Positions 23,731 to 51,325 of a stretch of DNA of 64,000 nt are shown here, piece by piece. The notes below the pieces were generated by a model. It was given only the letters and a program-made list of their open reading frames with translations, was not told where the DNA came from and ran no database searches. Made by a program: the position numbers and the translations under genes. Position 1 is the stretch's first letter; every line of letters starts with the position of its first letter. Source of the DNA: Saprospiraceae bacterium (GTDB lineage Bacteria; Bacteroidota; Bacteroidia; Chitinophagales; Saprospiraceae); contig JAKVCU010000063.1 of assembly GCA_022448955.1 (NCBI GenBank), positions 1-64,000 on the forward strand, in the 5' to 3' direction.

Positions 23731-24814
23731 TTAATGTACGCCCCCATGCATTAAAAAAGCCTTTAGAAAATCATCTAAATCACCATCTAACACATTATCT
23801 ACTTGACTCGTCTGATAGCTAGTACGATGATCTTTTACGCGACGATCGTCTAGGACATAGGAACGAATTTGTGATCCCCATTCATTTTTCATTTTACCAG
23901 ATTCGATTTCACTTTTTGCCGCTTTTTGTTTTTCTAATTCTCGCTCATACAATCTTGATTTCAGCATTTGTAAAGCTTTATCCCGATTCATATGTTGTGA
24001 TCTTTCCTGCTGGCACTCTGCCACTATCCCAGAAGGTAAATGTCGAACCCTTACGGCTGATTCCGTCTTATTAACGTGCTGCCCTCCTGCCCCACTTGCA
24101 CGGAAGGTATCCCATTCTAAATCTGCAGGATTAATCTCGACTTCAATTCTTTCATCTACTAATGGATGAACAAAAACAGAGGCAAAGGAAGTCATACGTT
24201 TGCCTTGAGCATTAAAGGGGCTTACTCGAACTAGGCGATGAACCCCATTTTCGCCTTTCAGCAAACCGTAGGCAAAATCACCATTTATCTCAAGAGAAAC
24301 ACTTTTGATTCCAGCGACATCCCCTTCTTGAAGATTCAGTTCACTTACTTTGAAGCCTTTTTTCTCGGCCCACATAAGGTACATTCGGTGGAGCATTTGT
24401 GACCAGTCACAACTTTCTGTACCCCCAGCACCTGCATTAATTTCAAGCAAGCAACCTAATTCATCTTCTGTTTGATTGAGCGTAGACCTAAACTCTAAAT
24501 CTTCGATGGCATCGATAGATTCCTTGTATTTAGCCTCTACTTCTTCTTCTGATGCTTCTTCTTCTTTATAAAATTCATAAAGTACTTCAGTATCTTCTAC
24601 ATGCTGTTGCACACTTGTATATTGTTCAACCCAATTTTTGTGTGATTTTAAAGATTTCAGAACACTTTCTGCTTCTGTTGGCTTATTCCAAAAATTTGGA
24701 TTTAGCGAAAGCTGTTCTTTTTCTTCGATTTGAGCAAGACGTTCATCCACGTCAAAGATACCTCCTTAAAGAAGCCACTCGATCTTTTATTTCTTTTAAT
24801 TGATCTGCGGTCAT
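23731..24814 (-). CDS. prfB: peptide chain release factor 2, expressed by programmed +1 frameshift
   Basis: RF2 recognises UGA and UAA and releases the finished peptide. The gene is split between two frames: ATG at 24814 opens a 20-codon frame (MTADQLKEIKDRVASLRRYL) that ends at UGA (24754-24752). The rest continues in the +1 frame from GAC at 24753. The complete product is 360 aa. Domain 1 is a coiled coil, the PCRF domain starts near EINAGAGGTES, the stop-codon tripeptide SPF is at about 198-200 and the catalytic GGQ at about 243-245 (ASGAGGQHVNKTES). A gene caller taking the GTG at 24750 as start would miss the N-terminus and the control. Transcribed separately from the FKBP gene upstream. 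Confidence 0.95.
24752..24766 (-). promoter_or_regulatory. prfB programmed frameshift site
   Basis: On the minus strand the sequence reads AGG AGG TAT CTT TGA C. AGGAGG is an internal Shine-Dalgarno-like sequence 3 nt before the slippery CTT, and the in-frame UGA followed by C is poorly terminated. When RF2 is scarce, the ribosome slips +1 from CUU to UUU and continues with GAC. Spacing and bases match the classic prfB autoregulation site. Confidence 0.95.
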
Positions 24815-39475: not shown

Positions 39476-42400
39476 TTATTTTACAACAGTGAAACGTTTC
39501 GTCAAGATACCTTGAGGAGTTACGATACTGTAGTTGTATAAACCAGCCGCTAATCTGCTTACATCTAATGTATAAGTGTAAGCACCTTCGTTCTGCTTAC
39601 CAGCGTACTGTGATTGAATCAAACGACCAGTTGCATCATAGATATTTAAGGTAACATCTAATTTCGCATCTAGTGAATAATTGACTTCTGCCAAATCTCT
39701 AGCTGGGTTTGGTATAATAGTAAAGCTCGTTACCTCATTCGCTAATTCATTCGTAGATACTAGTTCATCCAATGGGAATGTCGTACCATCAGGTAGAGCA
39801 ACCCATACTTGGAATCCATCAGCCGGTTCTTCGCTTCCTAAGAAACCAGAGGCAAATACAGTGGCTGCACCACCTTCCAAACTAGTAACATCTGCGGTAT
39901 AACGCTTCACAATTACATCATTATCATTTGAAGGGGTAACATCTAATGTATATGTATTGGCAGGTACATTTAAGTATCCGTCAAATTCACCATACTCGAC
40001 ATTGTCATAGATTACACCTACGCCCTGAGCTACTACATCTACTTCAGGAGCATCTGGAGAACCGTGGTACAATAATAAGTCTACACCACCATCTGAAGCT
40101 GTTCTTCCTTCATCAAAGATTGCAAGGTCGAATGGTGTATCTGGATCACCAACCACACCTGTTGCCATGATAATGTATACTTTTCCATCTTCTAGAGTAA
40201 CACCGTCAAAGTTTGCGATTGCATCGGCAGAAGAAGTGCTATTTTCACCTGCTACAGCTAAATCAATACCTACACGGGTAGGTAAATCAACAAATGGAGA
40301 TGCTGAACGGAAAGCAAAGTCATCTAAGAATAGAGCATCATTAGCATAAACGTCAACTGTTGGTGTTGGTGAGTTGTGAATCACCTGTGCTTGTGCAACT
40401 GGCGTTAAACGCAATACTGTACCATCAGGTAAGGCAGCTAATAAATCAAAATCTTTATCATCATCTGGAGATAATGTGCCAGAAGCAAAGATCACTGCTG
40501 ATGCGCCACCAAATGCTTGTGCATCGATATTAAATGTACCGACTAAGGTTTCTTCTGAGCCATCAGGGCGGATTTCTAAGAAATAATTTGCGGGTGGAAT
40601 GGACGTATAATCATCGCTATAACTACCATACGCTAAACCATCCAATAGAGTACCAATACCTCTTGCTACTACATCAACTGCTGGCGCATCTGTTGCTCCA
40701 TGGAATACAGAGACATCAAGAGTCGCAGCACTTTCAGATCCCAATCGACCATTATCTTGAACAAATAATTCGAATGGCGTCGTTGCATCGCCGGGTATAC
40801 CAGCTGCAATAATATTGTAGAATTTACCATCTTCTAATGTAACAGCTGGTAGGTTTAAGAATACCTCTTCTGGACCAGTACTTGTAGGGCCAGCAACACC
40901 AATATTAATTGGGGTTCTTGTCACGATAAATGTATATGGTGTAGCTGTTTGGAAAGCAAAGTCATCTACAAATATTCCACCATTTGCATATAAATCAACT
41001 ACTTCTGCACCTGGAGCTGCAGAGTTGTGAATCGTTTGTGCTAATGTTACCGGTATAAATGGGATTACAGTACCGTTTGATAATGCAACATATAGATTGA
41101 TTCTTGGATCACCATCTTCTGCAAGGAAGCCACCTGCAAATACAACACCTGCGAGTCCCTGACCTCCAGTCAAATTAAAGAAGAATTGAGCGACTAAATC
41201 TTGAGTACCTGCTGGTAATAATTCTAATACGAATGGCTGTGGTAATAAACCAATATAATCATCCGTAAACTCACCAAATGCAATATCAGAAATAACATTT
41301 CCTGCAAAGAAGTCATCTACATCAACTGCTGGCGCATCCGGCGATCCGTGGAATACCTTTGCTTCAAAGGTTGCTGGATCAGCACTTGCTTCCTTACCTT
41401 CAGAAATAAATAAGTCGAATGTACCATTCGCTACCTCACCAGCAGCCACTACAACTACGGTACTTCTATCTTCAAATACAATATCTTCAAAAGTAGCAAT
41501 CGCATCATCTACTGATGTAGATGTTGGAGGAGCCACCGCAATATCAACTGGAATATCTGCTCTAAACCAACCGAATGGTGTGGCAGTTAAAAATTCGAAA
41601 TCATCTAAAACTAGGGCACCATCGACATAAATATCTACTGTTCCAGATGGAGAGTTATGGATAATTTGACCTCTAGCAGCACCAGTCGCAGGAAGTTCGA
41701 CTACTGTTCCATCAGCTAGTGCAGCAAAAAGACCAAATGCTGGATCACCTCCTAATAAACCAGAAGCAAATACGGTAATAGCATTACCACCAAGACCATC
41801 TAAATTAGCTTCGAAGGTAGCCACTACATCAGTAGAACCTGTTGCCCGGATGTCTAAATAATATAAGTCTTCTGGTACAGCAATATATCCATCATACTCC
41901 CCGTATTCAACATCCGTAAATAATGTACCAACTAGACGAGCGTCTACATCTACATTTGGTGCACCAGGAGAACCATGTAATACCGTAATCTCCACCTCAC
42001 CATCAGCGGCTCTTTCTTGTCCCATACCATTTATTGCTAAGCCAAATGGGAAGTCAAGGTCCCCAACAATACCATTTGCAGTGACTACATATGTACCCCC
42101 ATTTTCAAGTGTTACTGGGAAATTGGCAATAGCATCAGCTGCTGATGTACTATTATCTAAAGCTACCCCAAGATTTATTTCTACACCAGCTGGTAAGAAG
42201 ATAAATGGAGATGCTGTTCGGAAAGCAAAATCATCTAAAAGAATATCATCATTTCCGTATATATCAACTGTTGGAGAAGGTGAATTGTGAATCACCTGTA
42301 CTCTTGCAACACTTGCTGCAGGAAGTTCAATCACTGTTCCATCTGGCAATGCTGCAAATAAACCAAAGTTAGGCGTATCACCCAATAAACCTGATGCGAA

Positions 42401-44233
42401 TACAGTTGCAGCACCACCCGCCAAACCAGATAAATCTGCTGCATAAGTAGCCACGATATCAGGACTGCCTGCAGCGCGAACATCAACATAGTATAATGCT
42501 GGTGCAACTGCGATATAATCACTGAATTGACCAAAAGCTACATCACCAAAAATTGTACCTACAGTTCTTACTCCGATATCTACATTTGGAGCATCTGGAG
42601 AACCGTGGAATGCTTGGAATTCAACTGTAGCTGCATCATCCGCTGCTGTTTTTGCGCCGGCTTTCACCTCTAGGTTGAAGGGTGTATTTGGATCGCCTAC
42701 GATACCATTTGCAATCACTATATAGTTTTCCCCTTCCGTTAATGCTCCTAATGGGAAAGTTGCAATCGCATCATTTACAGAGGTACTTGGACTTACTGCA
42801 ATAGCTACTTCTACATCTACCCCTGCAGGCAATGCTAAAAATCCAGTTGCTGCGCGGAATGGAACCGCCGCCAATGTAGGTAAGCCATTCAAGTAAATAT
42901 CAACAACAGGACCAGCATCTGTTCCTGCAAATGGAGAATTGTGAATAATTTGAACATTGGCAGTCGCTGCAATACAAGAAAAATCTGCATCCTCATTGTT
43001 TGCTCCGGGAGTGATGCACTGTGCTCTGAAGTCAGCTCCATTATTATCTGAATCAAATCCATTAGGAATACGAGCAAGGCCAAAGTTATCAATGGCTGAA
43101 ATATCGACTAAATCATCTCCGCTACCTTCCGAAACATTTTCGATAGTTCCTTCGTAGCTTAATGCATCAAAAATTTGTCCTTGGAATGCTAATGCGATAG
43201 CATCAGGGCCACCATTTTGTACACTGCCACCAGCTACTGATTGATCACAGTATGCTGCATTGTTTTCGCCGAAGCAAACCACATAATAGCCACCTGCTGG
43301 TACAGTCACATCATCCAAAGCAATTGAATTGTATTGTTGGCTATTGCTACCATTCCATAAATCAATTGATGTGCCGAATAAGTTGGCATCTTCCGTACCA
43401 TTGTTAAATAATTCAATAAATTCAGCAGTATCGCCCCCTGCTTGGTCGTAATCCACCTCATTGATAACCATAGAAGGTGCATTTACTGCTGGTAATTCTA
43501 ATACTGTACCATCCGGCAATGCAGCAAATAAACCAAATGCTTCTCCATTTTGATTAGCAGGTGGATCTAGAAAGCCTGAGGCAAATACAACAGCAGCTCC
43601 ACCTGCCAAACCACTAAGATCCGCCATGTAGCTAGCTACAATTGTTTCATTAGCTCCAGCAGGGGTAACATTTAAGATATATTTTGCTGGGGGTACGCCA
43701 GCATAGCCACTGTAAGCTCTAAAATTGAGATTTGGAATAAGTGGTGCTCCACCTACTACAACATCTACAGCTGGTGCATCTGTTGAGCCGTGAAAAGCAT
43801 TGATATCGACCATTTCTGGCATAGAGGCAGCAGTCTGCCCTGTAGCCCAAATATCCAAGTTAAATCCAATATTAGTATTTGTAGAAGTATTGAAGTCATC
43901 TGGATTTAATACACCATTTGCTGTGGCAATATAGGTATCACCTTCTGTCAAAGTGAGTGGACCCAACGAAAGGATAATATCCTGTGGGCCTGAACTGTTT
44001 GCAGGAGCGAAGCCAAATTGAAGCTCAACGCCAGCTGGAAGGTCAATGAATCCAGTTGCTGTTCGAAATTCAAAATCATCTAGTGCTGGTGTTGCACCTT
44101 GATTCACATAAACATCCACAGTCGAAACTGCTGGATCTGGCGAATTGTGAATAATTTGTACACTCGCCGTTTGAGAGAACGCATAAGTAGAGAATAAAAA
44201 CGCTACAATGAGTAGCATGTAATTTTTGTTCAT
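39476..44233 (-). CDS. giant secreted DUF4397 repeat protein with lamin-tail insert and T9SS tail
   Basis: 1585 aa from the ATG at 44233 (MNKNYMLLIVAFLFSTYAFSQ signal peptide); an open extension to 44281 has no signal-like start. Six units of about 210 aa each contain an IHNSP half (VQIIHNSP, then VDVYVN-type) and an HGSPDAP half, ending in a repeated FASGFL ... GLFAALPDGTVIELP block. Between units 1 and 2 sits a lamin-tail domain (MVINEVDYDQAGGDTAEFIE ... GGYYVVCFGEN, about 255-420). The C-terminus is a T9SS domain (TIIPNPARDLAEVNYS ... GLYNYSIVTP). A long surface protein, probably adhesive or structural. It has its own strong terminator and is divergent from the Clp-like gene. Confidence 0.85.
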   Translation of the reverse strand: MNKNYMLLIVAFLFSTYAFSQTASVQIIHNSPDPAVSTVDVYVNQGATPALDDFEFRTATGFIDLPAGVELQFGFAPANSSGPQDIILSLGPLTLTEGDTYIATANGVLNPDDFNTSTNTNIGFNLDIWATGQTAASMPEMVDINAFHGSTDAPAVDVVVGGAPLIPNLNFRAYSGYAGVPPAKYILNVTPAGANETIVASYMADLSGLAGGAAVVFASGFLDPPANQNGEAFGLFAALPDGTVLELPAVNAPSMVINEVDYDQAGGDTAEFIELFNNGTEDANLFGTSIDLWNGSNSQQYNSIALDDVTVPAGGYYVVCFGENNAAYCDQSVAGGSVQNGGPDAIALAFQGQIFDALSYEGTIENVSEGSGDDLVDISAIDNFGLARIPNGFDSDNNGADFRAQCITPGANNEDADFSCIAATANVQIIHNSPFAGTDAGPVVDIYLNGLPTLAAVPFRAATGFLALPAGVDVEVAIAVSPSTSVNDAIATFPLGALTEGENYIVIANGIVGDPNTPFNLEVKAGAKTAADDAATVEFQAFHGSPDAPNVDIGVRTVGTIFGDVAFGQFSDYIAVAPALYYVDVRAAGSPDIVATYAADLSGLAGGAATVFASGLLGDTPNFGLFAALPDGTVIELPAASVARVQVIHNSPSPTVDIYGNDDILLDDFAFRTASPFIFLPAGVEINLGVALDNSTSAADAIANFPVTLENGGTYVVTANGIVGDLDFPFGLAINGMGQERAADGEVEITVLHGSPGAPNVDVDARLVGTLFTDVEYGEYDGYIAVPEDLYYLDIRATGSTDVVATFEANLDGLGGNAITVFASGLLGGDPAFGLFAALADGTVVELPATGAARGQIIHNSPSGTVDIYVDGALVLDDFEFLTATPFGWFRADIPVDIAVAPPTSTSVDDAIATFEDIVFEDRSTVVVVAAGEVANGTFDLFISEGKEASADPATFEAKVFHGSPDAPAVDVDDFFAGNVISDIAFGEFTDDYIGLLPQPFVLELLPAGTQDLVAQFFFNLTGGQGLAGVVFAGGFLAEDGDPRINLYVALSNGTVIPFIPVTLAQTIHNSAAPGAEVVDLYANGGIFVDDFAFQTATPYTFIVTRTPINIGVAGPTSTGPEEVFLNLPAVTLEDGKFYNIIAAGIPGDATTPFELFVQDNGRLGSESAATLDVSVFHGATDAPAVDVVARGIGTLLDGLAYGSYSDDYTSIPPANYFLEIRPDGSEETLVGTFNIDAQAFGGASAVIFASGTLSPDDDKDFDLLAALPDGTVLRLTPVAQAQVIHNSPTPTVDVYANDALFLDDFAFRSASPFVDLPTRVGIDLAVAGENSTSSADAIANFDGVTLEDGKVYIIMATGVVGDPDTPFDLAIFDEGRTASDGGVDLLLYHGSPDAPEVDVVAQGVGVIYDNVEYGEFDGYLNVPANTYTLDVTPSNDNDVIVKRYTADVTSLEGGAATVFASGFLGSEEPADGFQVWVALPDGTTFPLDELVSTNELANEVTSFTIIPNPARDLAEVNYSLDAKLDVTLNIYDATGRLIQSQYAGKQNEGAYTYTLDVSRLAAGLYNYSIVTPQGILTKRFTVVK
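39760..44165 (-). repeat. six tandem DUF4397 coding repeats of about 630-660 bp
   Basis: The IHNSP-coding motif recurs near 44150, 42945, 42285, 41660, 41030 and 40375. Spacing is 625-660 bp except for the first interval (about 1205 bp), which includes the roughly 500-bp lamin-tail insert. Nucleotide similarity is visible (GTGAATTGTGAATaAcyTG recurring), so units were copied and then diverged. Confidence 0.85.
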
Positions 44234-44498
44234 AATAACATACATTTGGTTATGTAGATGATAATTGTTACAAGCCCTCAAACATGAGCACCGTACTTAT
44301 GTTTAATGAAATTTGCCAAAATCCGACAATTTGTTAAACAAAAAATTATTTTCGACAAATACCTGTCAATTACTATAATTTTTCTGCTTACAAATAGGGG
44401 TAGTCATTTATGCTCAGCATTTTTTAAAATAGCAGTCGTGTTTATTAGAAAAAATTTTATCTTAATGTCCGCAATTAAAAGAAAGCAACCCTGTCCAA

Positions 44499-47400
44499 AT
44501 GGCATTTATAAAGCTAAATATCCCTGTTGTTGTTAAAGAAATAAATTTAGAAGAGCGTCCCCAATACTACATCCGCCCGTTATTTCTGTCTTATCCAGTA
44601 GCTACCAACTTCAGGTATGAGTCGGCTATTGGTCAATTCCAAAAGGAGATTAAAAATATCTTTAAAGGCTTTGCCTTAGAAAGATCAAATCAGGATCAAT
44701 TAAAGTGGTATTTATACCAACCAGAAATTTTGTTTAAGAACTATAAGTTGGAGTTCAACATCGGTAAACAATTTATTAGTGGCTATTTTTCTGCAGCTAT
44801 TTTCCGTCAAGGAGAACATACGTTCATACACATTCCTACGCTCAATTATATGTTTATGGCACATCCAGGACAGGATGATAACATCCAAATTAAGCGGGCT
44901 TGTAAGCATATTATTAAGCAATATAAAGAAGAAGATGGCAATGATTTTGATCCTAGTTTATATTATTCCGATAAGAAGACCTTCCATACTTTTGTAGAAG
45001 TTAATGTCAATATAGGCCAAGGCCCCTTTAAGTTTGAACGTTCTGCTAATAATTGGTTCTTTGCGGCTTTAGGCGGAGATACTGCTTTCGAAGGAGATGT
45101 TGAAATCGAAAAAGTAGGTTATGACTTAAATAGTTTATACCCATCTGAGCTTCGAAGAGCATTTTATCAGGATGATATTGTTGATAAAATTCAAAAGATA
45201 GTTTTTCAAGCTGATCATACACCTATTGCGCTCATTGGACCAGAAGGTGTAGGCAAGCACACCTTAATCCATGAAGTCATCTGGAGATATCAAGATAAAA
45301 ACAAACGAAAGTCTAAAGGAAGAATCCAGCGACTTTGGCATATCGACCCAACAAGGATTATATCAGGAATGAGTGTTGTCGGAATGTGGCAAAAGCGCTT
45401 TGAAGCCATTCTAAAGTTTATCCGTAAGCCTCACCCAACAGAAGAAGGTGCAGATATGCTTATGATTGATAATGCAGTAGCTATGCTACGAATAGGCAAA
45501 TCTGCTCAAAATGACCTTACATTAAGTGATGTACTTAGGCCATATCTCGAAAAACGCCAAATTCAGTTTATAATTATTGCTAGCTCGGAAGAGTGGAAAG
45601 TGTTGCAAGAAAAAGATCGCCGATTTAGTGATTTGTTTCAGATTTTCCGAATACAAGAACCTGATATTGAAATTGCAACAAGAATCATCCTACAACAAAG
45701 GAAAGTTTTGGAAAGTGCAAATGGTACTTTCTTTACGATTCAGGCAATTAATCAGTTATTAACTATTCAAAGAAATTACTTAAAAAGTAAGCCACTGCCG
45801 GGCAGTGTCATGCGTTTGATGCAGCAGTTGGCTGTGAAGTATCGCTTTCGCAAAATAGATGCACCAGAGGTGCGACGAGAGTTTGAGACATATAGTGGAT
45901 TAGAAGAACGAATATTTGATGCTTCCTATATTTTTGAACAAGATGAAGTACATCAAGCCATTAGTAGGCAATTAGTAGGGCAAGAAGAAGCTGTTCAGGT
46001 ACTTGGCGATTTAATCCATCTTGTCAAAGCTAAGATTAATGACAAATCCAAGCCTTTAGGTTCATTCCTTTTTATTGGACCTACAGGTGTTGGTAAAACA
46101 CAGGCTGCAAAAGTACTTTGCCAGTATTTAATGGGTAATGAAGACCGCCTACTTCGGTTTGATATGAATGAGTATATTGATGCTTTTGCCATTAATCGAT
46201 TAATTGGTGATTACAGTAGTCCAGAAGGACAATTGACGGGTAAGGTCAGATATCGTCCATTTAGTATTGTATTGTTGGATGAGATTGAAAAAGCCCATTC
46301 AAGTATTCATGATTTATTATTGCAAGTACTAGATGATGGACGTTTGACAGATGCACTTGGTCGTACAGTTGATTTTACAAATACGATCATTATCATGACC
46401 TCTAATGTGGGTGCCTCGCAAGCAAGCACAACTATTGGACCTTACAAAGATGATGTAAAAGATAATGTTTATGCTAAAGCCGTTGAAAACCATTTTCGCC
46501 CAGAGTTTATTAATCGAATAGATCAAATTGTTGTTTTTAATGCCTTAAAAGAAGAGCACATATTAGGTATTGCTCGACTGCAAATAAAAGAATTACTTAA
46601 ACGCGATGGTTTTGTCCGAAGAACCACTATTCTTAATATATCACAAGCGGCATTAGCCTATGTAGCAAGGAGAGGTTATGATAAGCAAATGGGTGGTCGT
46701 GCTTTAAAAAGGCAAATCGAAAAAGATTTAACTGCTCTATCAGCAGAGCAGCTTATTTCTACGGATACAGAAACGCCTATTATCTTTGAAATTTTACTCA
46801 AAAATAATACTCTAGTACCAAGTATTAATCCGCTAGATTTTGTCACACCTATTTCAGGAAAATGGTTGCCAGAAACACCTGAAGAATTGAAGGGACGAAA
46901 TTTCTATATGCAATTGATCCAAGCTATAGAGCGCTTAGAAAGTCGAACTAGGAAGCTCGAGGTGGATAAGGAAGGGCCCATATATTCGGGGAGTGCTCAG
47001 GAAAACTGGCAGTATTATGACTTTAAGAATAAACTTGCAGAATTAAAGGAGCATTTAACAAAGATCATGTTAGGTTATAGAGAGCGTTTCTTTAGAGAGC
47101 CACCAGCGATTCCACTCCGCTTGAAAAGAGGGGAATTGGTTCAGCGCAATGACTTCTCCACCAAAGGAGTTCGTGAAAACTTACGTGACCGATTATTCCA
47201 AGAGGAAGGTATCAAAGAACTGAGTGAGGCCTATCATTTTGCTGCTCCTATTTTCGATAGTTTAAGTACCGAATTTTTAGAGAACTATCTTAGAGTCACA
47301 TTTATTCAGCTAGCAGCAATAGATTTTCTTCGATCTGAAACGCAGAAGATCGAATTGCATCTAACTTCTTGCATCAATGGATTGGGAGATGATCAGATTT

Positions 47401-47771
47401 TATTTTTGCGGAAGCTTTACCTAGATTTTTTCGAAAGAATGGATATTAGCTATGAGGTAAGAGAAACTAATCCAAACATTATTTGGGCCGAAGGACATAG
47501 CCTAAATACATTACTGCAAGGAGAAGTAGGTATTCATTTATTTTATGAGTCTCATCAAAACCCATTGCCTATAAAATTGAATATTTTTTCTAGTCAAGAT
47601 ACAGTGAAGCAATCATCTACAAAGGTTATTCGAGTTTATGATGGCAATAAGAGCCTAACAGATTTAAGGACGGGTTTTTCTAATGCAGTAGGAATTACGC
47701 CAGATGAATTCAAGCTTCTTGTATATGCTGGATTAGATCCTAAAGTCAGAGAACAAATAAATCCATTTTAG
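44499..47771 (+). CDS. Hsp100/Clp-type double AAA+ ATPase with a release-factor-like C-terminal region
   Basis: 1090 aa. Residues 1-215 form an unrecognised N-terminal domain; the double Clp-N repeats of ClpA/ClpB are absent. D1: Walker A GPEGVGKHT (247-255), Walker B MLMIDN (320-325) with Asn where catalytic Glu belongs, so hydrolysis in D1 is probably impaired. No ClpB-type middle coiled coil was seen. D2: GPTGVGKT (527-534), LLDEIEKAH (D594, E595), IIMTSNVG and FRPEFINRID (arginine finger), then a ClpB-like small domain (YDKQMGGRALKRQIE). Residues about 775-1090 are extra; around 950-1065 they look like a release-factor PCRF and tail domain (see findings). No ClpP-docking loop is evident. 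Function unknown; likely protein remodelling. Confidence 0.8.
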   Translation: MAFIKLNIPVVVKEINLEERPQYYIRPLFLSYPVATNFRYESAIGQFQKEIKNIFKGFALERSNQDQLKWYLYQPEILFKNYKLEFNIGKQFISGYFSAAIFRQGEHTFIHIPTLNYMFMAHPGQDDNIQIKRACKHIIKQYKEEDGNDFDPSLYYSDKKTFHTFVEVNVNIGQGPFKFERSANNWFFAALGGDTAFEGDVEIEKVGYDLNSLYPSELRRAFYQDDIVDKIQKIVFQADHTPIALIGPEGVGKHTLIHEVIWRYQDKNKRKSKGRIQRLWHIDPTRIISGMSVVGMWQKRFEAILKFIRKPHPTEEGADMLMIDNAVAMLRIGKSAQNDLTLSDVLRPYLEKRQIQFIIIASSEEWKVLQEKDRRFSDLFQIFRIQEPDIEIATRIILQQRKVLESANGTFFTIQAINQLLTIQRNYLKSKPLPGSVMRLMQQLAVKYRFRKIDAPEVRREFETYSGLEERIFDASYIFEQDEVHQAISRQLVGQEEAVQVLGDLIHLVKAKINDKSKPLGSFLFIGPTGVGKTQAAKVLCQYLMGNEDRLLRFDMNEYIDAFAINRLIGDYSSPEGQLTGKVRYRPFSIVLLDEIEKAHSSIHDLLLQVLDDGRLTDALGRTVDFTNTIIIMTSNVGASQASTTIGPYKDDVKDNVYAKAVENHFRPEFINRIDQIVVFNALKEEHILGIARLQIKELLKRDGFVRRTTILNISQAALAYVARRGYDKQMGGRALKRQIEKDLTALSAEQLISTDTETPIIFEILLKNNTLVPSINPLDFVTPISGKWLPETPEELKGRNFYMQLIQAIERLESRTRKLEVDKEGPIYSGSAQENWQYYDFKNKLAELKEHLTKIMLGYRERFFREPPAIPLRLKRGELVQRNDFSTKGVRENLRDRLFQEEGIKELSEAYHFAAPIFDSLSTEFLENYLRVTFIQLAAIDFLRSETQKIELHLTSCINGLGDDQILFLRKLYLDFFERMDISYEVRETNPNIIWAEGHSLNTLLQGEVGIHLFYESHQNPLPIKLNIFSSQDTVKQSSTKVIRVYDGNKSLTDLRTGFSNAVGITPDEFKLLVYAGLDPKVREQINPF

Positions 47772-49298: not shown

Positions 49299-49871
49299 AT
49301 GTTGGCACTTCAGAGAAAAATCATTCTTGCTAGTAAGTCTCCGAGGAGATCACAATTACTTTCCCAGGCTGGCTTTCAATTTGAAATCAAAACGAAAGAA
49401 GTACAAGAGGATTTTCCGGAAACGATGCCCGTGGAGGATGTAGCTGAGTATTTGGCCATAAAAAAAGCGAGGGCTTCCAAAGAAGTGATCAAGGAAGGGG
49501 AAATACTATTAGCTGCGGATAGCGTTGTTATTTTAAACAATGTCATTTATGGAAAGCCAAAAGATCGTGCAGATGCTCAGCAAATACTGAAAGCACTTTC
49601 AGGCCAACAACATCAAGTCATAACAGGTGTTTGTTTGCTTTCGCAAAATAAACAAGTTTCCTTTTCTGGGATATCAAAGGTCTATTTTAAAGAGCTGACT
49701 ACAGAAGAAATTGACTTTTATATCGACACATACCAGCCCTATGACAAAGCTGGTGCATATGCCATTCAGGAATGGATAGGATTGTGTAAAATCCGTAAAA
49801 TCGAAGGTACTTATGCCAATATAATGGGCTTACCAGTTGACTTAGTATTCGAACATCTAGCCGAATTTTAG
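49299..49871 (+). CDS. maf: Maf family nucleotide pyrophosphatase
   Basis: 190 aa. Maf signatures: LASKSPRRSQLLSQAGF (SPRR substrate loop), LLAADSVVIL (catalytic Asp), YGKPKDRADAQQIL and YDKAGAYAIQEW. The family hydrolyses modified or non-canonical nucleoside triphosphates (dTTP/UTP or methylated pyrimidines) to monophosphates, a house-cleaning role. Last gene of the operon; its last 4 bases overlap the 3' end of the convergent lectin/CHU gene, with no terminator between them. Confidence 0.93.
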   Translation: MLALQRKIILASKSPRRSQLLSQAGFQFEIKTKEVQEDFPETMPVEDVAEYLAIKKARASKEVIKEGEILLAADSVVILNNVIYGKPKDRADAQQILKALSGQQHQVITGVCLLSQNKQVSFSGISKVYFKELTTEEIDFYIDTYQPYDKAGAYAIQEWIGLCKIRKIEGTYANIMGLPVDLVFEHLAEF

Positions 49872-51325
49872 CGTAGAAGTGTAAGATCTCCTTTTTCATC
49901 TATTTGCTTATCACCAATCGTGAATTGAATAGTGTAGATATACACATCAGCAGGTGCAGCTTGATTATTGTAAGTACCATCCCAAGTTCGATCAGGCTTA
50001 TCCGATTCAAAAACTAAGGTTCCCCAACGATTAAATATTTTACAAGAATAATCCTTTAATAAGGCTTTAGTTACTATACCGAAGGTGTCATTCAGATTGT
50101 CTCCATTAGGTGTAAATATATTGGGTACCCCATATTGATCATTCGCAATTTCAAAAGTAATGCTTACTTCTGAAGTACAAGCGTTTGGAGTGGTAGCGAC
50201 CACAGTAATCGTTTCTTCTCCTGTCTGCGTTTCTGAACTAGTAATGACTGTGCTAATAGAATCTGGATGGGAAAATGTACTCCCTATATTTGAACTCCAC
50301 ATAAAAGTATAATCTTCCGCATTTCCTGATAGTACATTTACCAAAAAATTCAGGTCAAACCCTGGCATAACAGTATCATCAATAGAAGTAGGAATAATTT
50401 CCATTTCAAAAAGTTCATCCTCGACAGTGATTAGGATGTCATCAGTAAAAGATATACCACAATCATTCGTAATTTCTACTGTATATAGTGTAGTCTCTAA
50501 AGGTGCTGCTACTGGATTAGCTATGGTAGTATCAGATAAACCTAAAGCGGGTGACCAATTATAACTTAGTCCACCACTGACTTCTAATTGTAATTCCTCG
50601 CCAGAACAGATAACCTGATCCTCTAGATTATCCAATACAGAAGTGTAAGTAAAACAAACCTCGTGAACATTATTAAGGCCACCTGTAGCAGAGGTGAACC
50701 CCCAGAAAACCAATGGATCACCATCAAAAATTTCGTTAATGATATCCGCACTGTATGTAATTCTCAATTCACAATCAAAGTAAACCATTAAAGTTTGTAT
50801 ACCTGCATCCCATCTTACTTGCATAGTATGAAATTGACAATCTTCCACATTTGGTGAAGAGGCATCAGTCTGAATTGGTCCAGCTAATGCGCCATCTTGT
50901 AGATTATGATTAACTATTCCATCCTTAATTAGAGTGATGTGATCAAAAATGGGGTCTCCAAAATCAGCATTTTGATAAGTATCAAATTCGATTGCTAGAG
51001 ATGGTTCAACGTTTCCTATACCCAAATCACCACCTCCCGTTCCAATGGAGGTACTAATTGGCTGAAGGCCAAATACAATACCGTCTGCTCCTTCCATATC
51101 AGAACATCCAAAAAACAACTCTGTGATGACTTCAAATGATTCACTAAGGTCGATCATTTTTTCATTCCAAATAGAACCTGCTTGCCAATTAACAGCAGAG
51201 GTCAGTTGAAAGCAACTATCATTTGAAGTGGCATTACCGTTCAAGAAAAAAGAGTCTTGACTTTTTAATCGATTCAGAGGAAGAATTAGAATAGAAAAAA
51301 GTAAAGCAGCAAAAATTGGTTTCAT
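49868..51325 (-). CDS. secreted L-type-lectin protein with gliding-type (CHU) T9SS tail
   Basis: 485 aa. Signal peptide 1-22. Residues about 25-215 look like a bacterial L-type lectin beta-sandwich: NGNATSNDSCFQLTSAVNWQAGS, GADGIVFGLQP, PSLAIEFDTYQNAD, HTMQVRWDAGIQTLMVYFDCEL and VFWGFTSATGGLNNVHEV. An immunoglobulin/PKD-like middle follows. The last 85 residues are the type-B sorting domain (VPNIFTPNGDNLNDTF, CKIFNRWGTLVFES, TWDGTYN ... DVYIYTIQF), which attaches or releases proteins through T9SS. Expected to bind sugars at the cell surface. Convergent with maf, overlapping by 4 bp. Confidence 0.85.
   Translation of the reverse strand: MKPIFAALLFSILILPLNRLKSQDSFFLNGNATSNDSCFQLTSAVNWQAGSIWNEKMIDLSESFEVITELFFGCSDMEGADGIVFGLQPISTSIGTGGGDLGIGNVEPSLAIEFDTYQNADFGDPIFDHITLIKDGIVNHNLQDGALAGPIQTDASSPNVEDCQFHTMQVRWDAGIQTLMVYFDCELRITYSADIINEIFDGDPLVFWGFTSATGGLNNVHEVCFTYTSVLDNLEDQVICSGEELQLEVSGGLSYNWSPALGLSDTTIANPVAAPLETTLYTVEITNDCGISFTDDILITVEDELFEMEIIPTSIDDTVMPGFDLNFLVNVLSGNAEDYTFMWSSNIGSTFSHPDSISTVITSSETQTGEETITVVATTPNACTSEVSITFEIANDQYGVPNIFTPNGDNLNDTFGIVTKALLKDYSCKIFNRWGTLVFESDKPDRTWDGTYNNQAAPADVYIYTIQFTIGDKQIDEKGDLTLLR

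Follow-up and report, generated by a model that had tools for sequence, protein, structure and literature searches.

Release factors (RFs) are among the most conserved proteins of translation. Their hydrolase domain is an insertion in the codon-recognition domain, as described in a survey of RF evolution (PMC6514570), and thus taking it out, whether by secondary loss or in some other way, poses little structural difficulty. The same text covers PrfH (RFH), in which the hydrolase domain is retained and domain 1 is missing, and Vms1/ANKZF1, an RF-type protein that is tied to the AAA+ chaperone Cdc48 via a short motif (VIM) and acts as a release factor. According to another report, PrfB3 of land-plant chloroplasts is an RF2 relative that has lost both the SPF and GGQ motifs and protects the 3′ end of petB mRNA (PMC5897788). 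We analyzed a window of 64,000 nucleotides from a Saprospiraceae bacterium (contig JAKVCU010000063.1) for the open reading frame (ORF) at 44499-47771 (+), which begins with ATG, ends with TAG, and encodes a protein of 1090 amino acids, referred to here as P1. By its domain matches and predicted structure, P1 belongs to the tandem AAA+ proteins of the ClpA/ClpB type, and its last ~330 residues have the fold of RF1/RF2 minus the GGQ domain (domain 3).

The P1 tail shares with RF1/RF2 (PrfA/PrfB) the domain order 1-2-4, the ExGxH and IRxY..TDxR blocks, and the predicted fold; it differs in lacking domain 3 and the PxT/SPF loop, in being fused to a Clp motor, and in having a sequence below Pfam detection. 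The motor is similar to ClpA, ClpC, and ClpB in its tandem AAA+ modules (D1 and D2), D2 small domain, and D2 active-site motifs; to ClpA in having no middle coiled coil; and to ClpC in the [LIV]G[FY] found at the IGF position in most P1 sequences. It differs from these proteins in the lost catalytic Glu of D1, the missing GYVG of D2, the RF-derived tail, and the three-paralogue set to which it belongs. PrfB3 is not known to be fused to a motor; it is, like the P1 tail, an RF relative without both motifs, and differs in its described role of protecting petB mRNA. PrfH also has a reduced RF domain set (Z 6.7 in the fold comparison of the tail), and its domain loss, as given in the survey text, is the reverse of that in P1. 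On the same source, Vms1/ANKZF1 differs from P1 in belonging to an unrelated RF superfamily, in being VIM-linked rather than fused, and in acting as a release factor. No description of a Clp-RF fusion was found in searches of open-access literature, and Clp is not mentioned in the main text of the survey; these searches suggest that the P1-type fusion and the machine proposed below for the three paralogues are undescribed.

A sequence-only reading of the window had claimed that a canonical D2 is followed by a long extra tail. This agreed with the Pfam result, in which AAA_2 was placed at residues 518-677 and ClpB_D2-small at 683-756, and nothing further C-terminal was above the cut-off, leaving ~330 residues beyond D2. 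Two AAA+ modules plus a D2-small domain were present. The NCBIfam scores were far under the cut-offs for ClpB (332.7 bits; cut-off 1232.1) and ClpA (311.8 bits; cut-off 993.15), and no NCBIfam RF family was found in the tail. As the tail escapes detection by Pfam and NCBIfam, such proteins are probably annotated merely as Clp ATPases.

P1 orthologues were found in the genomes of 17 of 60 relatives, one of which had a diverged N-terminus. A scan of GTDB genomes using a profile from eight P1 orthologues retrieved 57 P1 loci; the named ones belonged to Saprospiraceae, Lewinella (locus L107), Phaeodactylibacter, and Flavilitoribacter (Flavilitoribacter nigricans, locus L136), and the others had broader names (Saprospirales, Chitinophagales, and Bacteroidetes/Bacteroidota). 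Locus L137, a fragment, was left out; the other 56 loci and the P1 of the window formed alignment A3. Conservation in the tail was counted in these 57 sequences, and the motor motifs were counted in 53 full-length P1 sequences and in 37 and 25 sequences of the paralogues P2 and P3. The full-length P1 profile spanned all 52 complete single-frame homologues on public contigs end to end, including one that was cut at a contig edge.

Residues 760-1090 of P1 were modeled by AlphaFold2 from alignment A3, with a predicted local distance difference test score (pLDDT) of 87.7 and a predicted template modeling score (pTM) of 0.87. In the Foldseek comparison with the PDB, ranks 1-23 were RF1/RF2-type chains or chains of termination complexes (best E 1.5e-4; six rows with E <=0.001), although the title of rank 8 names just a ribosomal complex. 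VIA-align 2 returned RF1, RF2, mtRF1, or termination complexes in rows 1-42, with Z of 9.6-12.3 for rows 1-41 and 7.4 for row 42; the first unrelated row was at 7.2. The top match was E. coli RF2 (1gqe; Z 12.3, 230 residues, root-mean-square deviation 4.5, model residues 35-324). The model has the fold of RF domains 1, 2, and 4 rather than an unrelated one, and the helices ahead of the motif blocks match RF domain 1. The match is not merely that of a helical bundle, as many rows span the mainly-beta domains 2 and 4 alone (model ~180-331, Z ~10-11). Model strands 264-272 (the last of domain 2) and 283-289 (the first of domain 4) are joined by ~10 residues, and thus RF domain 3 is absent from P1. 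The loss of domain 3 had been proposed in the sequence-only reading together with the retention of domains 2 and 4. Both hold, the latter by fold and by profiles, but the retention of these two domains only does not, since domain 1 is included by fold. The models and profiles thus support that structural reading for the most part and extend it by domain 1, a second RF-armed paralogue, and a trio.

The P1 tail was not recognized as an RF by standard sequence searches. The Pfam PCRF model had no match in P1 even at E 10, and PDB searches with a single protein and with a 17-row profile gave no RF, the seven PDB rows all being of E 0.11 or worse. Over the 60 relatives, PCRF gave one weak, sub-threshold match to a P1 orthologue (G017, E 0.26, profile 153-173), corresponding to the ExGIH block by coordinates. 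In hhalign comparisons of the 57-row P1 profile with 30 RFs of the clade, the PCRF block was aligned with P 0.00077, and a further alignment, collinear with the first, paired IRxYD..TLTDLR with IRTYN..RVTDHR (P 0.045). Using 50 RF1 and RF2 sequences of the clade from which domain 3 was removed, P was 1.1e-4 for domains 1+2+4 and 9.7e-5 for domains 2+4; over all comparisons with clade RFs lacking domain 3, P ranged from 8.3e-5 to 1.1e-4. P1 gave P 0.16 with RF domain 3 alone and 0.0054 with the whole RF, to which the full-length signal had been reduced from 0.00077 by adding the RF2 sequences. The expected match to PCRF was therefore absent with the Pfam model and present with the clade profiles lacking domain 3, which scored above 25 control families. 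When proteins were ranked by a hidden Markov model (HMM) of RF domains 2+4, P1 and P2 members filled places 1-9 of 918 proteins (803 of them background, with the cluster holding P1/P2/P3 copies removed), at E 0.07 to 0.9, none being individually significant.

Two nulls were used for the profile comparisons. In column shuffles, 4 of 150 per query scored 132-140, exceeding the observed 37.6 (P1) and 30.7 (P2), while the other 146 scored <=21.8 (P1) and <=23.2 (P2). The outliers look like a program artefact: of the four best P1 alignments, three cover <=12 columns, and for each query the best alignment printed ends at the last template column; the shuffle null is nevertheless not clean. Thus, 25 unrelated ortholog families were taken as the second null, and none was under P 1e-3 against P1 (best score 19.2); these families have 4 to 23 members each, and therefore shallower profiles, and were run for P1 only. 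From fold and profiles together, the P1 tail is almost certainly an RF-derived module.

The blocks that had been set parallel to RF2 motifs are present in P1 and lie where the tail is most conserved (57 sequences). None of these sequences departs from E1009, G1011, P1024, R1045, D1055, R1057, and E1070, and 50 of them have H1013; the E, G, H, R, D, and R of this conserved set have counterparts in the RF1 of the clade. The PxT or SPF codon-reading loop is absent from the 57 sequences, which have a shorter HQNPLP loop instead. As this loop is conserved across P1, it probably still touches something specific. GGQ was found at the domain-3 site in none of 53 P1 sequences. Its letters occurred anywhere in 3 of 53 P1 (none at the domain-3 site) and 7 of 37 P2 sequences; three of those in P2 were in the ExG block, and one (L176, residue 1036) was in the short domain-3 link with no domain around it, probably by chance. 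P1 is thus RF-derived and is not a release factor.

P1 is one of three paralogues, of which P2 has an RF-like tail by profile and P3 has no such tail. The P2 tail appears RF-like from its alignment with the whole RF (P 1.7e-4 over 173 columns) and with the RF lacking domain 3 (P 5.5e-5); RF domain 1 alone gave P 0.0083, and domain 3 alone gave P 0.37. An alignment of the P1 and P2 tails gave three weak blocks (P 0.0013, 0.042, and 0.059), ordered alike in both. Co-occurrence was counted in 150 genomes of one family, which we took to be Saprospiraceae from the names at the P1 loci. P2 was present in 56 genomes, exactly those that had P3, and 53 of them also had P1; none of the three was found in the other 94. 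The three trio genomes in which P1 was missing are assembled in 480 to 770 contigs. The trio was patchy within genera, for example g22 (G377 with, G022 without) and g32 (G224 with, G032 without). It is kept or lost as a unit, and its members are very probably linked in function. In the sample of the order, P1 was found in 19 of 298 genomes, all in family f1, and in the phylum sample in 1 of 395, the window's own; both counts come from a search with a loose and capped first pass, by which distant copies could be missed.

In a tree of 53 AAA+ cores rooted on ten proteins of related genomes (labeled ClpC-like by us), P1, P2, and P3 each formed one clade, and P2 and P3 were sisters (98/93). Under this rooting, the common ancestor of the three paralogues probably already had the RF module, which P3 then lost. 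In the genome of the window, P2 is located at L032:100-3339 (-), with its GGQ letters in the ExG block and outside any catalytic domain, and P3 at L047:763-3033 (-), with 757 amino acids and no RF-like tail. Among eight P3 regions, a methyltransferase-like gene was seen in four and a DUF819-like gene in six (names by eye).

The replacement of the D1 Walker B Glu by Asn, noted earlier for the P1 of the window, was found in all 53 full-length P1 sequences. The D1 catalytic Glu was likewise retained in none of the 37 P2 (Asn in 35, Ser in 1, and Gln in 1) and none of the 25 P3 sequences (Asp in 20, Asn in 4, and Ser in 1). D1 of P1 is catalytically incomplete by motifs, with both Walker A and B affected, while D2 is complete, with the Asp and Glu of Walker B, the arginine-finger Arg, and the sensor-2 Arg each in 53 of 53. 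The Walker A/B motifs and arginine finger of D2 are retained across the three paralogues, and the D2 GYVG pore loop is absent from all of them. In D1, arginine-finger-like residues are retained by P1 only (R in 52/53 and 40/53) and the pore-loop Lys-Tyr by P3 only (22/25 and 23/25). These complementary losses suggest mixed rings in which the D1 layer would be passive and the D2 layer active. Where ClpC has IGF, the tripeptide is [LIV]G[FY] in most P1, IGW-like in most P2, and IG[FY] in most P3 sequences by column.

We propose that P1, P2, and P3 form one heteromeric double-ring Clp motor, in which D1 would be a non-hydrolyzing layer and D2 would hydrolyze ATP. Docking is suggested by the RF-derived arms that P1 and P2 carry; it would occur on the ribosome (A-site/30S region) or on other RNA fitting RF domains 2/4 and would leave the peptide unreleased. 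The docked motor would then remodel or extract ribosome-bound or nascent protein, possibly feeding ClpP. The computation supports the domain identities, the absence of both domain 3 and the PxT/SPF loop, the shared occurrence of the trio, and the active-site motif states. The assembly of the three proteins in one complex is somewhat better than an even bet, binding of the ribosome or RNA through the module is evenly balanced, and coupling to ClpP, left possible by the tripeptide at the IGF position, is rather unlikely. Taken whole, the proposal of a heteromeric trio motor with docking RF arms is the best explanation and has about an even chance of being right. Its more specific form, a three-paralogue Hsp100 in which two members carry hydrolase-less RFs and which docks on Saprospiraceae ribosomes for co-translational quality control or ribosome remodeling, is tentative. 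Such a machine would be a bacterial parallel of the ribosome-linked Cdc48/Vms1 system, built of different parts. An RF minus its catalytic domain has been joined to a Clp motor, in a set of three kept or lost together. If the arms dock on ribosomes, this would be a bacterial motor aimed at the translating ribosome, and a coupling between Clp remodeling and translation would become directly testable; if they do not, a codon-reading scaffold has been taken over for another job.

Several observations weigh against this proposal. The codon-reading loop is gone from P1, which weakens "decoding" as a literal label, and the loss of the canonical pore loops does the same for "unfoldase"; with the D2 pore loops shortened, canonical threading by the trio is doubtful. 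At the position of the ClpP loop, the P1 of the window has IGP instead of IGF. The RF nature of P2 comes from profiles only, and in P1, RF domain 1 alone gave no profile support (P 0.55). The full-length RF profile scored 35.1 with P1, hardly above the 32.6 that the reversed RF alignment reached with P1 in a helical stretch; the full-length comparison is not convincing by itself, whereas the domain-3-less one is (38.1 vs. 15.9 reversed). When the HMM was built from the entire RF, or from one retaining domain 1, the first rank went to a background protein, above P1 and P2. AlphaFold2 was trained on solved structures, RFs included. No P1-P2-P3 operon was found in the fetched regions, the genes being mostly on separate contigs or far apart; P1 and P2 were on one contig in some genomes (~4.5 kb apart in G257). 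By eye, the neighbors of P1 resemble housekeeping genes (kdsC-, ubiA-, maf-, and ferredoxin-like), and thus none of them points to translation.

Among other explanations, the one that survives best is that the module works off the ribosome as a protein-protein arm, which would join the paralogues or recruit substrates in the manner of Clp N-domains and adaptors. This would account for the loss of both the PxT/SPF loop and the GGQ domain from P1, for the weak alignment of the P2 version with that of P1, and for the strict co-occurrence, which suggests mutual contact; yet the RF-like core residues and tip loop are conserved in P1, and P3 belongs to the trio without the module, which is therefore not needed on every subunit for assembly. 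We consider this arm a real possibility, short of an even chance.

The module might also be an mRNA- or RNA-binding arm of a motor that remodels ribonucleoproteins or controls mRNA stability. PrfB3, an RF scaffold that binds RNA without both motifs, is a precedent (PMC5897788), and the N-terminal region of P1 gives some support, as it is likely HicB-like in fold. Its AlphaFold2 model (53 sequences; pLDDT 86.3, pTM 0.69) matched five HicB-titled structures, one toxin-antitoxin complex, and one putative RNA-binding protein in VIA-align rows 1-7 (Z 6.3-7.7; row 8 at Z 4.4), and weaker rows were double-stranded RNA-binding domains. The resemblance to HicB is, however, of middling Z (<8), and Foldseek gave nothing significant for this model (HicB at E 0.13 or worse). 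The RNA arm is accordingly judged unlikely, if still plausible.

Service to a contractile injection system, as by ClpV in type VI secretion, would fit a Clp-type ATPase, and sheath matches (E 1e-5) were commoner in genomes with the trio (19/56) than in those without (8/94); it is nevertheless very improbable, as no sheath match at that threshold was found in 37 of the 56 genomes with the trio, among them that of the window, and the TssH model (TIGR03345) scored P1 at 241 bits, far under its cut-off of 884.95. That the RF resemblance is chance or an AlphaFold artefact, as the empty Pfam PCRF and PDB sequence searches and the 4 of 150 shuffles with very high hhalign scores might suggest, is more improbable still, since fold and profiles agree in register, the P2 profile gives the same answer, and the shuffle outliers look artefactual, the other 146 being under the observed scores.

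Table 1. Features of P1 by position in the window, with residue numbers and the evidence for each.
Feature	Position	Strand	Residues and evidence
P1, tandem AAA+ ATPase of the Clp/Hsp100 type; HicB-like region at the N-terminus, RF-like module without domain 3 at the C-terminus	44499..47771	+	ORF, Pfam/NCBIfam, orthologues
N-terminal region, HicB-antitoxin-like fold (moderate evidence)	44499..45164	+	Residues 1-222; AlphaFold2, VIA-align
D1 Walker A, degenerate (GKH for GKT/S)	45237..45260	+	Residues 247-254; T/S position is His in 33/53 P1
D1 pore-loop position, aromatic residue lost	45372..45401	+	Residues 292-301; Tyr position is I, V, or M in 50/53, Tyr in 3/53
D1 Walker B, catalytic Glu replaced by Asn (N325)	45459..45473	+	Asn in 53/53
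D2 Walker A GPTGVGKT, intact	46077..46100	+	
D2 pore-loop position, shortened, without GYVG	46197..46229	+	Alignment with ClpC/ClpB-like proteins of the clade; conservation in 53
D2 Walker B DEIEKA, intact	46269..46298	+	Asp and Glu in 53/53
Position of [LIV]G[FY] ClpP-loop-like tripeptide; IGP in the window P1	46431..46445	+	By column, G in 47/53, F or Y in 47/53
RF domain-1-like helical region	46884..47327	+	Residues 796-943; fold evidence only (helices in model, 1gqe alignment)
RF domain-2-like region with ExGIH block	47343..47591	+	Residues 949-1031; model, fold comparison, profiles, conservation
HQNPLP loop, short and conserved, at the position of the RF PxT/SPF codon-reading loop	47553..47570	+	Residues 1019-1024; H1019 in 46/57, P1022 in 51/57, P1024 in 57/57
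Site of the missing RF domain 3 (GGQ domain), ~10 residues instead of ~90	47592..47621	+	Model strands directly linked; RF1 for comparison
RF domain-4-like region with VIRxYD..TLTDLRT block	47622..47756	+	Residues 1042-1086; model, fold comparison, profile, conservation

Other roles and partners were considered and rejected. A tandem AAA+ neighbor was present in the P1 region of 23 of 60 P1 loci and was rejected as a partner because it occurs in 141 of the 150 family genomes; this protein has AAA_lid_6 and a large N-terminal part (e.g., L136:4818-7529 (-), plus 22 further P1 loci), and we take it to be CbxX/EccA-like. Replacement of transfer-messenger RNA (tmRNA) was rejected, since 131 of 150 genomes have a tmRNA match over the Rfam cut-off, among them 51 of the 56 with the trio and the genome of the window. 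At E 0.001 the number rises to 149 of 150, with weak matches resembling tRNA included. PADLOC matches were confined to the AAA+ parts, and a role in defense was not retained. A phage origin was also set aside: 157 phage records matched, none covering 80% of P1, and in the five rows listed the matches lie within residues 203-794.

The window also contains an RF2 gene at 23731-24814 (-), the frame of which is broken near the start. At 24750-24814 (-), AGGAGG is followed by CTT TGA C ahead of the frame change, presumably the known programmed frameshift site of RF2, and the span is not a multiple of three because of this apparent site. A repeat protein of ~1600 residues (39476-44281 (-)) adjoins P1 and has relatives in six P1 regions, including that of the window; by eye, it ends in what we assume to be a type IX secretion C-terminal domain. 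The protein at 49868-51325 (-) ends in a FTPNGDNLNDTF-type region, which we take by eye to be of the gliding/CHU_C type.

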